Part shown: positions 21,647 through 27,458 of the stretch, in pieces
Position numbering within the stretch: the stretch's first letter is position 1
How the letters are laid out: each line of letters begins with the position of its first letter
Assembly: GCA_013215505.1 (NCBI GenBank)
Contig: JABSQZ010000029.1
Coordinates: 1-52,949, forward strand
Direction of reading: 5' to 3'
DNA from: Oceanospirillaceae bacterium
GTDB taxonomy: Bacteria; Pseudomonadota; Gammaproteobacteria; Pseudomonadales; Balneatricaceae
Length of the DNA: 52,949 nucleotides
Notes under the pieces: generated by a model
Database searches by the model: none
Seen by the model: the letters and a program-made list of their open reading frames with translations, nothing else
Told to the model about the DNA's origin: nothing
Made by a program: the position numbers and the translations under genes

Positions 21647-23046
21647 TTACGCTAATGCTTGTTCGCTATGATAATACTTATAGTCGGTATAGCAAGGAAC
21701 ATGTGAACAAGTCCGGTGCGCCTCTGGCTTACAGTGCATTCCAATATCTAGGCATCGAATACAGACAGGCTGGTTGCCTGTCGAAAGTTGATAACGCCGA
21801 TATTGGGGTGCTCTGTAAGCCCCTACGGGCGAGCTCTAAAACGGTCATCTGCTTTGCATACACGGATGTAGGCAAGGGGCGTGAGCAGGACGCGGTAGCT
21901 TTGTCAGGTAACTTGGAAAGGACTCGTCATTCCACTGCGTTTCCTTTCGCGCATCTGACCGCTTTATAGCTCGCAGAGAAGACACCGGACTTATTCTCAT
22001 GTTCCTAATTTCATTGCCGCCATAAAAAGTGTCAAAATCTACAGGGTTTAATGGCAGTTGCTCTTTATAGCGGCGCACTAGGTCGGGATTTGCCAGAAAG
22101 GGCAGGCCAAATGCCACTAAACTTGCATCGCCATTGTCCAGTGCTGTCTGCGCTTTTTGCAGGTCATAACCGTTATTGGCAATATAGCTGCCGGAAAACT
22201 TATCCCTTAGTGCCCGGTAGTCCAACAGACTGACCTTAGTCATCATGTCGCCTTGCAAGATGTGTAAGTATCCGAGCTGACGAGTGCTGAGTTGTTCAAT
22301 GAAGTAGCCAAAATGCTGTTGCGGCTGGCTATCCGACATAGAATTAAAACTGTTCTCGGGCGTAAGGCGAACACCGACTCGATCAGAGGACCAAACGCTT
22401 ATTACCGCATCCAGTATCTCATTTAACAAACGCATGCGGTTTTCCACACTGCCACCGTATGGATCAGTGCGCTGATTACTGCCATCTCGTAAGAACTGGT
22501 CAATGATATAGCCGTTGGCACCGTGTATTTCAACCCCGTCAAAGCCAGCCAGTTTTGCCATTTCTGCTGCGTGCCTGAACTGCTCTACTAACTGTGGTAT
22601 TTCGGCTGTCTCTAAGGCGCGAGGGTTTGGTAATCTAGCATCCCGGTGTAAGTCACTGCCTGGCCGTCAGCTTTTATCGCTGAGGGGGCCACAGGCAGCG
22701 CATTATCAAGTTGCATACTGCTGTGAGAGATGCGCCCGCAGTGCTGCAGCTGGGCGAAAATATGCCCGCCTTTTGCATGCACAGATTCAATTAAGGGTGC
22801 CCAGCTGGCTGCCTGCTCGGTATTGAACATTCCCGGGGTATTGGGGTAGCCAACAGCCTGGGCTGAGACCGGGGATGATTCAGCAATGATCAAACCGGCT
22901 GTGGCCCGCTGCTGATAATGCTCAATCATCATGTTGGACACCAGACCTTGTTGGCTGGCACGGTTGCGGGTCATCGGGGCCATTACCATACGGTTGCTCA
23001 GTTTTAAACTTCCTAGTTGCACAGCGGCAAATAACTTCTTGCTCAT
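21647..23046 (-). pseudogene. Old Yellow Enzyme (alkene reductase, NemA-like), frameshifted and interrupted by an insertion
   Basis: The gene starts at 23046 (MSKKLFAAVQLGSLKLSNRM) and keeps OYE landmarks: MAPMTRNRA, AQLQHCGRISH, then HGANGYIIDQFLRDGSNQR, DPYGGSVENRMRLL and LANPDLVRRYKEQLPLN. Near 22630 one C is missing in CAAACCCTCGCGCC, which moves the frame after DYQT. The reading frame then runs to FYGGNE near 22010, where a 312-bp element begins. The true OYE end (YTDYKYYHSEQALA, stop at 21647-21649) resumes beyond the element at 21693. OYEs reduce activated C=C bonds with FMN and NADPH. Two independent lesions make loss of function likely. Confidence 0.88.
21695..22006. mobile_element. 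312-bp MITE-like element with 24-bp terminal inverted repeats
   Basis: The left end AGGAACATGTGAACAAGTCC (continuing to 21718) is inverted at the right end (21983-22006) with only two mismatches in 24 bp. The element splits the OYE reading frame between GGNE and YTDY, which shows it is a genuine insertion with defined edges. It encodes no transposase, so it is non-autonomous. A related single end lies at 28705-28728. Target duplication is not obvious. Confidence 0.75.
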
Positions 23047-23311: not shown

Positions 23312-24253
23312 TTATAGGTTGGATTCTTTTAAGGGTAATCCCAGTGTACCGAAGGCGCTGCGGATTTCCTCGGCGGATTGTTTAGCTGTTGTTTGAAACC
23401 ATTCAATCAATAACTCAGATGCATGTTTAGACAAGTTTTTCTTTCGTGATAAATAGTGAGCACCTAACAGCACCGGTTGTGCATCGGTCGCTGGTACCAG
23501 TAATTTATTGTTGAGCTTATCACTCATGTAGTGGGCATTGGTTAAGGCGATTCCGTAACCTGCCACCGCCATTTCTATCGCGGCGAAGTCAGTCGGTAAT
23601 TTCATGGCGCTATTGATGGCAGCAGCAAAATCAGCAGAGTCTATGTGCATCAGTTTCGCCCAGGTTTTCCAATCACTGGCAGTGGGTGAATTTAACAGTA
23701 GCCGCTGTTTCGGCAGATCATGAATATCAAAGATGCCACTGTTTAAATATTTTGGTGAGCAAACAGGTATCATCCATTCTTCCAGCAGAGGTTCAGCTCC
23801 CTCTCGCTCCAGTGGAGTGGTGGAATATAAAATCTCTAAATCATAGTATTTTGGGATGTTATTTTCCTGACTGCCGGCACTCATCTGTACTGTGATCTTA
23901 GGGTGCTCTGCCTCAAATTGATGAAAGCGGGGCATCATCCAGCTCATTGCAAAACTGGTGGAGGTGCTGATAGATATTTCTCTGGTGGTTTTACTGACTT
24001 CGCTAACTGCATCCAAGATGATTTCAAAAGCCTGGACGATTGCAGGGAGAATCTTTTCACCTTCTTCGGTCAAGGTTAAACCTTTGGTATTGCGTAAAAA
24101 TAAAGAAAAACCAAAATGTTCTTCCAAGAGCTTTATTTGCTGGCTGACCGCACTTTGGGTAACAAAAAGGTCTTCGGCTGCATGTTTAAAACTCAAGCGC
24201 TTGGCTACGGCTTCAAATGCACGAATTGAGTTTAAAGGGGGTATTCTTCGCAT
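23312..24253 (-). CDS. LysR-family transcriptional regulator (GcvA-like)
   Basis: 313 residues. The N-terminal winged HTH (MRRIPPLNSIRAFEAVAKRL, FKHAAEDLFVTQSAVSQQIK, residues 1-60) has the RxPPLNxLRAFEA pattern of the GcvA/AmpR subgroup. The C-terminal LysR substrate domain spans about 90-300 (ISISTSTSFAMSWMMPRF). It lies 101 nt downstream of the SbnA-like gene on the same strand, so it is the likely regulator of the kinase/exporter/synthase operon. The co-inducer is unknown. Confidence 0.92.
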   Translation of the reverse strand: MRRIPPLNSIRAFEAVAKRLSFKHAAEDLFVTQSAVSQQIKLLEEHFGFSLFLRNTKGLTLTEEGEKILPAIVQAFEIILDAVSEVSKTTREISISTSTSFAMSWMMPRFHQFEAEHPKITVQMSAGSQENNIPKYYDLEILYSTTPLEREGAEPLLEEWMIPVCSPKYLNSGIFDIHDLPKQRLLLNSPTASDWKTWAKLMHIDSADFAAAINSAMKLPTDFAAIEMAVAGYGIALTNAHYMSDKLNNKLLVPATDAQPVLLGAHYLSRKKNLSKHASELLIEWFQTTAKQSAEEIRSAFGTLGLPLKESNL

Positions 24254-24354
24254 TTATTCTCCCTATGAATACATGATAAATAACATGGCACTACAGGGAG
24301 AATATATCACTACACCAGAATAACAACTGATTTAAAACAAGCTGTTAATTCTTA

Positions 24355-25401
24355 TCAGGCAGCACTCAAGTTGATTTCCTTCGCCGGATATCTAAAAGGT
24401 GTCAATGCAGCTGCCTGAGCTAAAATAACAGAGTGATCGTCGAGCGCAGATAAGCCTTTTTCCCGCAGCCAGGCATCGTTATAAAACTCATCCAGATATT
24501 TTTCACCCCTGTCAGCCGAGATAGCTAAAACAATTTTGTCGGGGCCTAAATTTAGCGCTTGGTGAATGGCGACAAATATTGAGGCACCACTTGAACCGCC
24601 CAATAAAATACCGAGTTTTTTGGCAATGATGCGCACAGTGGTAAAGCACGGTTGGGTGTAAACCAGAAAGGCTTCATCGACGACCTTTTCATCCAGGTTA
24701 TCGGGAACCCACCCCAACCCCATTCCGGTAACGGCTGTCGGGCCTTTGCTTCCACCAAAGACTACCGAGCCTTTTACATCGACGCCAACAATTTTGGTCT
24801 TGGCATTTCGTTTACGTAACCCCTTGCCGATACCGGTGATTTGTCCCGCAGTAGATACCGATGCGACTAACACATCAGGAGCCATTGGAAAATCGTTCAG
24901 AATTTCCAGCGCGGTAGTATCAATATGCGCCGCAGGGTTTCTGGGATTGCCGTATTGCCAGGGCATATAAGCATTTGGCAAAGTGTCAGCCAAGTGATGG
25001 GCGCGCTTAATTCTGGCCTCCTGGTAAGTGCCATCTTGGGGGTTTTTATCGATGACAATATCCACTTGTGCGCCAAATGCTTTGAGCATTGAGATGTTAT
25101 GTTGGCTAGTTCTTGGGTCGACGATAATAATGCACTTATAACCTCGCACTGCAGAAATCATCGCCAGAGCGGCGCCTAAATTACCCGAACTCGATTCTAC
25201 TATGGTACCTCCAGGTTTTAATTCCCCAGATTTTTCTGCCTCTAAAATCATGTTTAAGGCGGCGCGGTCTTTAATCGATCCCCCTGGGTTATACCCCTCT
25301 AACTTTACAAATAGTTGCGCTGACCCCACAGGCATTAGCTCCTGAAGGGATAGCACCGGTGAATTGCCTATATGCGATAATATATTGTTATCTAAGATCA
25401 T
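24355..25401 (-). CDS. SbnA-like PLP-dependent synthase (beta-substituted alanine from O-phosphoserine)
   Basis: 348 residues, fold type II PLP enzyme of the cysteine synthase family. The PLP lysine is in NPGGSIKDRAAL (about residue 45), the substrate loop is ESSSGNLGAALAM and the phosphate-binding loop is GGSSGASIFVA. Three stretches match staphylococcal SbnA more closely than CysK: VGVDVKGSVVFGG, LGILLGGSSGAS, and SADRGEKYLDEFYNDAWL. SbnA joins O-phospho-L-serine with L-glutamate to N-(2-amino-2-carboxyethyl)-L-glutamate in L-2,3-diaminopropionate formation. The usual partner SbnB is absent here, so the product may differ. The start overlaps the exporter gene by 14 nt. Confidence 0.85.
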   Translation of the reverse strand: MILDNNILSHIGNSPVLSLQELMPVGSAQLFVKLEGYNPGGSIKDRAALNMILEAEKSGELKPGGTIVESSSGNLGAALAMISAVRGYKCIIIVDPRTSQHNISMLKAFGAQVDIVIDKNPQDGTYQEARIKRAHHLADTLPNAYMPWQYGNPRNPAAHIDTTALEILNDFPMAPDVLVASVSTAGQITGIGKGLRKRNAKTKIVGVDVKGSVVFGGSKGPTAVTGMGLGWVPDNLDEKVVDEAFLVYTQPCFTTVRIIAKKLGILLGGSSGASIFVAIHQALNLGPDKIVLAISADRGEKYLDEFYNDAWLREKGLSALDDHSVILAQAAALTPFRYPAKEINLSAA

Positions 25402-26623
25402 TTGTAGCTCCTACATTTTTTGATAGTTGGGTCATAGCGCGGTTTTTCTTCAGGTACGCGGGTAAAAAAATCACCGGGGCCAAAATAGCGATAAACAAGG
25501 TGAAATAAATCGCGGCCAATACCCCAGATGCAGATAAAACTAAGGTCATTACAAACAGGCACAGTGCCCGCATCAGCATAATCCAGCCCTGCAGTAATGC
25601 ACCGATTCTGCCGATTTCGCTGGCTGTCGTTTGCTGCATCAATAACGTTTGTCGCAGAATACGCACCACGGAATTACTGAAACCAAAGGCACACGCCAAC
25701 ACGATGAACCCCCAATAGGTGGGAAAAAGTACCTGAAATGAAACGACCAGTAAAAACAAGCCGAGTGAATAGAGCAATAACAATTCAGTGTTGACGCCTT
25801 TAAAGCGACCTGAAATCATGATCCAGCCACCTAAAATTGCGCCCAGGCCAAACAGCAGTTCAACAACTGCATAAGTAGAACCGCTCGCTTGTGGTATCTG
25901 TGATAAGGCGATGGGATGCAAAACCGTATAGAGAATAATCACCACATAGGGGATTGATGAGACCAACAACATTAAGGCCAGCACTGGCTTACGTAGCGCT
26001 ATCTGGACGCCTTCGTTGAAAGACTTAAATATGCTTTGGCTCTTTAAAGAGAATTGTTTAGCGGGGTGTTTTATCCTGGCGATACAAAATACTGCGACGA
26101 TATAACAAGCCACATTGCCTAATATTATTATTGAAAGGCCTAAATACTCCATCACTAGTATGGCCAGTGCACCGGTACTGACAGCGGCAACTTGGTTTTC
26201 CACTTCTAGTATCGAATTTATCCGGGCGTATTCATCGGCCGCAAATAGCTCTTGTACGTAAGCGGTACGCAGGGGCACATTAAAGGCGTAAAATACCGCA
26301 CCTAAGCTGTAATAGAGTATTAATGACGCGGTAGTGTTATCGCTGAATGCAAAGATAGCGTAGACCAAAACTAGCCCCAACAGAAAAGCCAGGCGTAAAC
26401 CAATCATTAGTTTTTGTCGAGAACAACCATCTATATATGGACCAATAAAAGGGGTAAGAAAAAACAAAAAAATATTGACGATAGTTGCAAGTACACCAAA
26501 CAATACTGAGCCACCCTCGCCGGTGGCTAGAAACCAGGGAATTGCGATCATAGCAACACCTGTACCGATGGAGGCCAGTGCATTTGAAATCAATAACAGT
26601 ATTAAAGTAGGGTTAGCTATCAT
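25388..26623 (-). CDS. MFS transporter, probable exporter
   Basis: 411 residues with about 12 membrane segments. Pattern of the EntS/SbnD-like drug- and siderophore-export branch: LLLISNALASIGTGVAMIAI at the N-terminus, a FLTPFIGPYIDGCSRQKLMI loop between TM2 and TM3 (motif A-like), and FGFSNSVVRILRQTLLMQQ in the second half. The start overlaps the kinase-like gene (ATGA, 4 nt) and the end overlaps the synthase gene, so all three proteins are translationally coupled. In staphyloferrin B loci an MFS protein exports the siderophore; by analogy this one may export the synthase product. Confidence 0.87.
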   Translation of the reverse strand: MIANPTLILLLISNALASIGTGVAMIAIPWFLATGEGGSVLFGVLATIVNIFLFFLTPFIGPYIDGCSRQKLMIGLRLAFLLGLVLVYAIFAFSDNTTASLILYYSLGAVFYAFNVPLRTAYVQELFAADEYARINSILEVENQVAAVSTGALAILVMEYLGLSIIILGNVACYIVAVFCIARIKHPAKQFSLKSQSIFKSFNEGVQIALRKPVLALMLLVSSIPYVVIILYTVLHPIALSQIPQASGSTYAVVELLFGLGAILGGWIMISGRFKGVNTELLLLYSLGLFLLVVSFQVLFPTYWGFIVLACAFGFSNSVVRILRQTLLMQQTTASEIGRIGALLQGWIMLMRALCLFVMTLVLSASGVLAAIYFTLFIAILAPVIFLPAYLKKNRAMTQLSKNVGATNDLR

Positions 26624-27042
26624 GCCGCAATGCCCGACTTTAGTTGCTCTAGTGCGAATACTTGTTCGGGGAAAATGCCATTAAAATGATGACGGCTGGT
26701 TTTTATCGGTAATAAATTTCCTTTGGCAGCCTGGCGAACTACCTTGCGATCAACGTAGAAATCTTCGCGCCAGGAACTGACAAAAATTTTCCGGTCGTCG
26801 TAATCGAGGCAAATACAGGGAATGACATCCAGGCAAAGTTGTTGTGCGGCGGCTAATCTATGGTGGCCGTCAAGAATGATGCAAGAATTTTTAACGACAA
26901 AAATCGGCTGCTTCCAGATCCCCTCACCCTGAATTTTATCGGCCAATGCCTGGGCGTGTTGAGGGTCGTGATGCTCGTGGGGAATTAAATTTTCTATCGC
27001 TATTAATCTGACTGTAAATGTTGGATGCAACTGAATTGTCAT
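26620..27042 (-). CDS. ParB/Spo0J-fold protein, probable free L-serine kinase (SbnI/SerK-like)
   Basis: 140 residues, a short single-domain ParB/sulfiredoxin-fold protein. It has a VRLIAIENLIPHEHHDPQHA start, ILDGHHRLAAAQQL (GxHR nucleotide motif, about residue 58) and a C-terminal RKVVRQAAKGNLLPIKTSRH like the end of archaeal SerK. The HE pair at residues 22-23 lines up by eye with the catalytic Glu of SbnI (HE at 19-20) and SerK, which make O-phospho-L-serine from free serine. True ParB proteins lack it and are longer. As first gene of the operon it would supply phosphoserine to the synthase. The family match is from memory of those sequences. Confidence 0.7.
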   Translation of the reverse strand: MTIQLHPTFTVRLIAIENLIPHEHHDPQHAQALADKIQGEGIWKQPIFVVKNSCIILDGHHRLAAAQQLCLDVIPCICLDYDDRKIFVSSWREDFYVDRKVVRQAAKGNLLPIKTSRHHFNGIFPEQVFALEQLKSGIAA

Positions 27043-27104
27043 TACTGGTACTCCGTGTTGATGTAGTCCAATAATTCTAGTTATTTTAACGCTTTAGACA
27101 AATT

Positions 27105-27127
27105 CCAATTTCTTAAGAGCAAATTAG
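27105..27127 (-). promoter_or_regulatory. Imperfect dyad upstream of the kinase operon
   Basis: CCAATTT and AAATTAG face each other across 9 nt, about 63 nt upstream of the first gene of the operon. The size suits a LysR-type binding site for the regulator encoded at the other end of the operon. Low confidence, since AT-rich dyads occur by chance. Confidence 0.3.
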
Positions 27128-27458
27128 AATTTTTAATGCGCAGCCGATAAAACGTCTGCAATTACCGCACAGTCGAGCTAGTAGTAACTTGACCGGAAGG
27201 TTATTAGGGAGTCCAGTGAGTGGAATTCTATATTACCAGCCGAAAAAAGCGGCTAACCGCAGTTAGCAAAGCACTGCAGCAGACACAGAAGGGAGCTTAC
27301 TTGCCCTCGCTAAGTGCATTTTTACAGCCTAGCTATGCAATATAGTTGGATATTATTAGCGCGTTAGCTGCTTTGCTCTGATTCTTGTAAACACACACGA
27401 GGGAAAAAGTGACAAAATGAAATTAATAGAAAAAGTCAGTAATAGGGGGCGATGAACT

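Follow-up and report, generated by a model that had tools for sequence, protein, structure and literature searches.

A candidate phosphoserine operon with a minimal ParB-fold serine-kinase-like protein, an MFS transporter, and an SbnA-like synthase without SbnB

Aspergillomarasmine A (AMA) is described as the product of a single enzyme, AMA synthase, which makes it in one step by successive additions of O-phospho-L-serine (OPS) to L-aspartate, and as a zinc ligand with a Kd of 0.2 nM (PMC8319579); a preference for Zn, Co, and Ni is also reported (PMC11091072). In the staphyloferrin B system, selective binding of OPS by SbnA is attributed to Arg132, Tyr152, and Ser185 (PMC12414870), and the kinase activity of SbnI as needing Glu20 and Asp58 (PMC9641203). 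SbnI and the archaeal serine kinase SerK appear among the sporadic examples of a 2025 ParB-fold survey (PMC12704722). Here, we analyzed a stretch of 52,949 nucleotides from an Oceanospirillaceae bacterium (assembly GCA_013215505.1, contig JABSQZ010000029.1), referred to below as the window, in which a kinase-like protein of 140 residues, a major facilitator superfamily (MFS) transporter, and an SbnA-like pyridoxal phosphate (PLP)-dependent enzyme are encoded by a candidate operon followed by a LysR-type regulator gene.

All four genes lie on the minus strand. The gene for the minimal ParB-fold, free-serine-kinase-like protein (26620..27042, 140 aa), the predicted maker of OPS, overlaps by 4 bp the gene for the MFS transporter (25388..26623, 411 aa; Pfam MFS_1 and MFS_3), the predicted product exporter, which in turn overlaps by 14 bp the gene for the SbnA-like enzyme (24355..25401, 348 aa; PALP), a predicted OPS beta-substitution synthase. 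The lysR gene (23312..24253, 313 aa; HTH_1 and LysR_substrate) begins after a gap of 101 bp and encodes a candidate dedicated regulator, inherited together with the operon. Both overlaps are identical in a second species of the same genus (G006). Pfam matched ParB_N in the 140-aa protein at 25.8 bits, slightly below the cut-off of 26.3, and the best NCBIfam models of all four proteins scored below their curated cut-offs. The open reading frames (ORFs), overlaps, and domains bear out the three tightly overlapping genes (kinase-like, MFS, PLP synthase) proposed in a first-pass annotation, as well as the GcvA-like LysR gene placed after them, for which GcvA (NF008352) is the best model.

From gene structure, catalytic and substrate-selecting residues, phylogenetic place, and genomic association, all read from the sequence itself, we infer an activity, a nucleophile, a product, a direction of transport, a metal role, and regulation. 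Our favored reading, held with a confidence slightly better than even, takes the operon as a self-contained phosphoserine module whose product, a small aminopolycarboxylate, is both made and exported by it. In the first step, the 140-aa ParB-fold protein would phosphorylate free L-serine to OPS. The SbnA-like enzyme would then eliminate the phosphate on PLP, and the aminoacrylate would react with the amine of an amino acid; the resulting N-(2-amino-2-carboxyethyl)-amino acid would be ACEGA-like (from N-(2-amino-2-carboxyethyl)-glutamic acid) with glutamate or of the aspergillomarasmine type with aspartate, possibly through repeated addition. Because there is no SbnB, this adduct would itself be the end product, and no SbnB step would follow. 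The MFS protein would export it as a metal chelator, with the LysR protein in control.

SerK is the best NCBIfam model of the 140-aa protein (56.4 bits, cut-off 380), followed by SbnI (27.4 bits, cut-off 350). When the protein was compared with the PDB using phmmer, SerK chains (1vk1, 5x0b, and variants) were returned with E-values from 5.7e-9 to 6.4e-8, and SbnI with an E-value of 7e-4. In the phmmer alignments, Glu23 falls on SerK position 30 (E in 5x0b, Q in 5x0j, and A in 5x0e) and on Glu20 of SbnI, and Asp58 falls on Asp58 of SbnI. The window protein thus carries the catalytic Glu and Asp of the SerK/SbnI kinases; it is neither full-length (242-254 aa) nor above the model cut-offs, having 140 aa and no central insert. 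The catalytic Glu, whose loss had been named as fatal to the earlier proposal, is retained. Alignment of 11 proteins of similar size (window, G006, one metagenome-assembled genome (MAG), and eight plasmid-borne) showed Glu23, Asp58, Gly59, His61, Arg62, Trp91, Lys114, and His118 to be invariant. The "His-Glu pair of SbnI/SerK" reported earlier is present as H22-E23, but His22 varies across the 11 members, only the Glu of the pair being invariant, and the second residue needed in SbnI is Asp58.

The 11-member profile matched SerK in two pieces, 14-119 and 204-241 (E 5e-21), the second of which carries K-T-T-R-H, and it matched SbnI (chain 5ujd) at 8-94 and weakly at 181-223 (E 6e-13). Given this two-piece match, the small proteins look like a SerK core minus about 85 central residues and not like a fragment. 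The E-values for the ParB family (2.4e-4) and sulfiredoxin (0.023) place the family nearer to SerK/SbnI than to partition ParB or sulfiredoxin. Several matches were left out of the family: L002, with 41 residues matched; G036/L005 (E 1.9e-6) and G025/L006 (E 7.1e-5), in frames of 442 and 451 aa, respectively; and G408/L008, which by eye adjoins a ParA-like gene. A search of viral contigs with the kinase family gave five weak partial matches. Two other identities of the 140-aa protein were considered and rejected: a canonical ParB partition protein (140 aa, ParB_N the sole domain found, weaker profile E-value) and sulfiredoxin (weak profile matches only, E 0.023 or worse).

The synthase had been called closest to SbnA. 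Its best NCBIfam model is indeed SbnA (TIGR03945, 319.4 bits), ahead of CBS (278.8), CysKM (266.6), and CysK (262.7), but the score misses the cut-off of 349.95, which the SbnA of G1113, a genome of the window's family, exceeds (417.2), and the best tree places the enzyme outside the SbnB-linked SbnA proteins. At SbnA positions 132, 152, and 185, the window and G006 synthases have R/Y/S, the genome's own CysK A/F/G, and its own CysM R/F/G. Arg132 is present throughout the 32 aligned rows save in the own CysK and CBS, and Tyr152 and Ser185 are variable, in SbnB-linked and rhizobactin-like enzymes (defined below) as elsewhere. Because the latter two positions vary even in SbnB-linked enzymes, the R/Y/S triple is suggestive of OPS selection and does not prove it.

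Maximum-likelihood trees were built from 32 and 35 proteins and contain several long branches, for which the program issued a warning. In the best tree, the window synthase joins exporter-linked enzymes of cyanobacteria and Vibrio together with pyrD/pyrE-linked enzymes (support 95/90), all of them distant relatives at a path length of about 2.7; the SbnB-linked SbnA enzymes form the sister group of this clade, with support of 97/94 in the tree of 35 proteins. The groupings submitted to the approximately unbiased (AU) test were fixed after the first tree had been seen, with CBS added beyond CysK and CysM. One clade of the window synthases with the own CysK, the own CysM, and one CBS was rejected (p = 0.013), as was their joining with rhizobactin-like enzymes (p = 0.007); forcing them together with SbnB-linked SbnA gave p = 0.058, so that this placement is not rejected at 5%. 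A clustering with CysK/CysM, which had also been named as fatal to the pathway proposal, was accordingly not found.

These results bear on a cysteine route, in which the kinase would feed an OPS sulfhydrylase and the MFS protein would export excess cysteine or a related thiol. In Thermococcus kodakarensis, SerK is described as part of a route of this kind (PMC5120207), and the synthase falls within the CysK/CBS superfamily. The genome, however, already has a CysK (451 bits) and a CysM (538.6 bits), both above cut-off; position 185 is Ser as in SbnA, where the own CysK, CysM, and CBS have Gly (as do several SbnB-linked SbnA proteins); the common clade with these enzymes is rejected by the AU test; and many other minimal kinases lie in siderophore-type or nonribosomal peptide synthetase (NRPS) clusters. 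We consider this route unlikely, and cysteine biosynthesis as the main role was rejected as first choice on the own CysK and CysM, residue 185, and the tree test.

Outside the genus, we compared 19 loci with a minimal kinase: 12 plasmid loci, taken from the best 20 of 101 matching records (several other rows being near-duplicates), six genome loci, and one MAG locus. The genome loci are all the non-genus matches, namely G625, G514, and G674 from 398 genomes of the phylum, G839 and G909 from 341 of the order, and G1113 from 116 of the family. In an all-frame check of 33 loci with the kinase profile and synthase blastp, the kinase was present at all 19, and at 17 the fetched region also contained an SbnA/CysK-like synthase, at a distance of up to about 14 kb (11 of 12 plasmid loci, six of six genomes, and not the MAG). 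These 19 loci are not independent, because the plasmids were drawn from the top matches, several of them are related, and G839 and G909 are of one genus, and the comparison has no random-locus control. The Methylobacterium nodulans plasmid locus has no synthase within +/-20 kb of the minimal kinase. In the MAG (L001, 5980-6402), a 2-hydroxyacid dehydrogenase gene precedes the gene for a 140-aa minimal SerK-like protein, and glycine-cleavage H and P genes come immediately after it, with no synthase. Within the phylum sample, TIGR03945 also matched strongly in two other genomes, of which only G674 has the minimal kinase. Comparative genomics supports the pairing of kinase and OPS synthase in the earlier proposal.

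The loci are of several types: staphyloferrin-B-type; rhizobactin-like (minimal kinase, Y4yA decarboxylase, CysK-like enzyme, octopine-type dehydrogenase, MFS, and in some cases IucA/IucC), a label that we give from gene content and from the rhizobactin structure as described in PMC7676072; ornithine cyclodeaminase (OCD)/decarboxylase/MATE; NRPS with SbnA and SbnB; SbnA-SbnB alone; and pyrD/pyrE. Some rhizobactin-like clusters also have a TonB receptor or a periplasmic binding protein. The most informative case is G1113, from the window's own family, where SbnA (417 bits) and SbnB (411 bits) are both above cut-off and an SbnC-like protein (324 bits) is below it, and where the operon continues with an MFS gene, two proteins of the NRPS-independent siderophore (NIS) synthetase type (best model SbnF, 79 and 493 bits, below cut-off), an aldolase, and a decarboxylase. 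A 139-aa minimal kinase (L065:9327-9746) directly follows these sbnA-H-like genes of a staphyloferrin-B-type operon, and after it stands a TonB receptor whose best model is RhtA (308 bits, below cut-off). SbnI likewise occupies the last place of the sbn operon of S. aureus. The 140-aa protein thus belongs to a recurrent minimal SerK/SbnI-like family that includes members in full staphyloferrin-B-type and rhizobactin-like loci.

Two further settings of ParB-type serine kinases were observed. At two loci (L043:11367-13873 and L044:5137-7643), the minimal kinase, SbnA, and SbnB are followed downstream by genes for a haem-oxygenase-like iron-dependent redox protein and for a transporter resembling lactate permease; these genes were scanned in L043 and assigned in L044 by matching gene order, and may represent a pathway derived from L-2,3-diaminopropionate (Dap). 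The Chimaeribacter arupi plasmid locus L014 has the minimal kinase in a pyrE cluster akin to that of the Bacillaceae locus L052, which was fetched as a synthase match and encodes a 253-aa SbnI-like protein (178.8 bits, cut-off 350). L014, L052, and the Sphingobium locus L053 share an SbnA-like synthase, a 4-hydroxyphenylacetate-3-hydroxylase-like protein, and a peptidase (M24-type in L014 and L052); pyrD is found in L014 and L053, and pyrE and a NUDIX protein in L014 and L052. The ParB-type kinase is minimal in L014 and SbnI-like in L052, and none is in the L053 stretch. This arrangement looks like a pathway to a pyrimidine-derived amino acid.

Among the distant relatives of the window synthase are exporter-linked enzymes encoded on cyanobacterial plasmids, of which seven of the 12 listed loci were read (L022, L051, L054, L057, L069, L070, and L071). 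In all seven, the synthase gene is followed by a transporter-like gene, with a Pfam ANKH match in six; the transporters of L054 and of the Vibrio europaeus locus L021 lack a Pfam match, yet show homology to the other ANKH-like ones. The ANKH/MATE-like transporters beside these synthases are annotated as hypothetical proteins. A two-component pair is divergent from the synthase in five loci (named RppAB in L057, L069, and L070, unnamed in L022 and L071), L051 has a heavy-metal-type MerR regulator next to it, together with RND genes, and L054 has no such gene. Heavy-metal P-type ATPases are encoded nearby in L057 and L070. Systems of the Rpp/Nrs type sense nickel or redox state. By analogy, these exporter-linked relatives may point toward a metal role for the synthase product.

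The exporter-linked synthases of cyanobacteria and Vibrio, with no minimal kinase nearby, would also fit a different role for the 140-aa protein, that of a nucleotide-dependent regulator of the ParB/CTPase kind, the synthase using phosphoserine from the ordinary serine route. ParB-fold proteins are described as binding varied NTPs, with CTP bound by a SerK-like protein (PMC12704722). We nevertheless hold a regulator to be highly improbable: ParB_N is the sole match in the 140 aa, the kinase Glu and Asp are conserved, in G1113 the sbnA-H-like genes end with a member of the family, and SbnI itself has been named both regulator and kinase.

The window genome is a draft, 98.2% complete in 52 contigs. 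A search for IucA/IucC (NIS synthetase) gave no match in it, with positive controls in E. coli and Haloferax, and at an E-value of 1e-30 the SbnB model TIGR03944 matched none of the OCD-family sequences found at five places, four full-length proteins and a 112-aa fragment. The best models of the four proteins are ornithine cyclodeaminase (two), pyrroline-carboxylate reductase, and BhcD; the fragment matched no model whatever. The earlier statement that SbnB and NIS synthetases are missing therefore extends to the whole genome, within the limits of the draft. The genome search with Octopine_DH was empty, and no such enzyme was recognised in the locus; this absence is weak, because no control genome gave a match either.

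An OCD-family enzyme encoded elsewhere could replace SbnB, so that the module would make Dap and the MFS protein would export Dap or a Dap product. The four full-length OCD-family proteins speak for this route, as does G909, of the same order, in which the minimal kinase accompanies SbnA and SbnB (TIGR03944, 395 bits) and whose gene order is the same in G839. It is quite unlikely in our view, as no OCD protein gives an SbnB match at 1e-30 and none is linked to the operon.

The distribution of the operon was followed in 57 genomes, the window's own (G000) included. The synthase (E<=1e-70) and the LysR protein (E<=1e-60) were each found only in G000 and G006; the kinase (E<=0.001) was found in the same two, plus weak matches in two long ParB-like frames that were not counted. 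A search of the remaining five members of the genus with the kinase family profile was empty, so that the operon is present in two of seven genus genomes. When the single kinase protein was searched against a class sample of 369 genomes, only G000 and G408 were matched. The three-gene overlap, for which a search in other genomes had been suggested, thus recurs, together with lysR, in one other species of the genus. Between the window and G006, dN/dS (YN00) is 0.33 for the kinase, 0.19 for the MFS gene, 0.08 for the synthase (first 310 codons), and 0.11 for lysR; a nearby gene for a solute-binding protein has 0.19. With the operon and lysR values at 0.08-0.33, the ORFs behave as real genes.

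The MFS protein, 81% identical to its G006 counterpart, is nearest to the H+ antiporter model TIGR00900 (121.5 bits, cut-off 319.6), with EntS at 38.4 bits, and the LysR protein reaches 213.9 bits with GcvA (cut-off 288). Conservation with G006 extends over about 100 bp in front of the kinase gene. An imperfect palindrome, AAATTCTAATTT-N9-AAATTGGAATTT (27100..27132), upstream of the kinase gene is a candidate LysR operator; it was reached by 3 of 300 mononucleotide shuffles, and we take its CTAAT element to resemble the GcvA box. The same palindrome search of the conserved G006 block reported none, which counts against the candidate and makes it weak as a LysR site. An inverted repeat in the synthase-lysR gap, ATTCTCCCT...AGGGAGAAT (24256..24303), seen by eye, is a possible lysR control site, of which TTCTCCCT/AGGGAGAA is kept in G006. 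A scan for promoters and terminators, which gave 14 and 7 sites where shuffles averaged 9.0 and 4.4, was uninformative. Beyond lysR, an Oxidored_FMN frame at 21845-23046 is split into two ORFs (22612-23046 and 21845-22561) and is possibly a broken gene; in G006, an intact 357-aa protein of this family is encoded (L007:7588-8661). An AcrB-type RND pump lies 10 kb from the operon.

Several observations weigh against a self-contained chelator module. None of the 12 loci fetched as synthase matches alone (eight exporter-linked, three SbnA/SbnB, and one pyrD) has a minimal kinase in its stretch, and this holds for the cyanobacterial synthase-exporter pairs in the stretches checked. None of the 10 neighbouring ORFs scanned in the window encodes a TonB receptor, an iron transporter, or another metal-specific function, and a by-eye look for Fur/Zur sites saw none. 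Blastp of the MFS protein against the SbnD-like, rhizobactin-type MFS, and MATE/ANKH-like exporters compared gave no match, so that its outward direction and its cargo are putative. The kinase model predicted from an alignment of two rows (predicted local distance difference test (pLDDT) 43) was too poor for use. The three-gene set was found in two species only, the kinase has the highest dN/dS of the five genes measured, and the G006 synthase frame (L007 2037-2969) ends at an in-frame TAG near codon 311, leaving a 310-aa ORF; this TAG may be an assembly error or a real lesion.

The in-frame TAG, the presence in two of seven genus genomes, and the kinase dN/dS of 0.33 against 0.19 for the solute-binding protein gene would suit a decaying remnant of a larger metallophore cluster whose product is no longer made. 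Against such decay, the four genes are open in the window, the overlaps are identical in both species, dN/dS stays at 0.08-0.33, and the catalytic residues and LysR are kept; we judge a remnant very unlikely. The minimal pathway outlined in the first-pass annotation gains from the kinase/OPS-synthase pairing and from the two results it had regarded as decisive, the retained Glu and the separation from CysK/CysM, and it needs amending in that the synthase is not SbnA proper, although the tree test does not reject its grouping with SbnA at 5%, and in that the 140-aa protein is one of a recurrent minimal family.

More tentatively, and with a probability that we place well below even, the self-contained module may be one case of a hitherto unnamed bacterial class of one-enzyme metallophore operons, in which a minimal kinase and an SbnA-like synthase, by single or repeated addition, would yield an aspergillomarasmine- or ACEGA-type chelator secreted by a dedicated transporter; the cyanobacterial operons would use the same chemistry, for example in metal detoxification. 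If the favored reading is true, a secreted amino-acid chelator would come from a kinase, a synthase, and a transporter only, much like the reported fungal metallophore. In the records read, most members of the recurrent serine kinase family of about 130-155 aa carry the annotation "ParB N-terminal domain-containing protein", and one is called "transcriptional regulator"; on the same reading, clusters of the staphyloferrin-B, rhizobactin-like, and NRPS types would probably draw their phosphoserine from such proteins, and the family could mark phosphoserine-dependent natural-product loci.

Searches of the open-licence literature aimed at the gene set, at the minimal kinases as a class, and at their use without SbnB turned up no account of any of the three, and the earlier description of the operon as undescribed fits this outcome. 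To judge from sequence, the parts are of known kinds, and it is their combination and the minimal kinase family for which no prior description was found. Like the staphyloferrin B system, the operon has a ParB-fold serine kinase, an OPS-type synthase with Arg/Tyr/Ser, and an MFS protein; it differs in a kinase of 140 aa instead of 254, in a locus without SbnB, NIS synthetase, decarboxylase, or receptor, and in a synthase that is below the SbnA cut-off and in a sister clade in the best tree. The kinase shares with the archaeal ADP-dependent SerK the two-piece profile match, the catalytic Glu, DGHHR, and the KT(T/S)RH motif, but lacks about 85 central residues and sits in a synthase/transporter operon. 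Rhizobactin-like clusters have the same kinase, synthase, and MFS elements, whereas their synthases form a separate clade with Ser/Gly at SbnA positions 152/185, joining of which is rejected (p = 0.007), and further enzymes follow. The [S,S]-ethylenediaminedisuccinate (EDDS) zincophore of Amycolatopsis japonicum, likened here by its description in PMC9252823 alone, is also a small aminopolycarboxylate with L-aspartate as precursor; EDDS is under Zur control. The fungal AMA system, also likened by published description alone, has in common with the proposed module that a single OPS-using synthase suffices for a metal-binding aminopolycarboxylate, to which the window operon would add its own OPS supply and a transporter.

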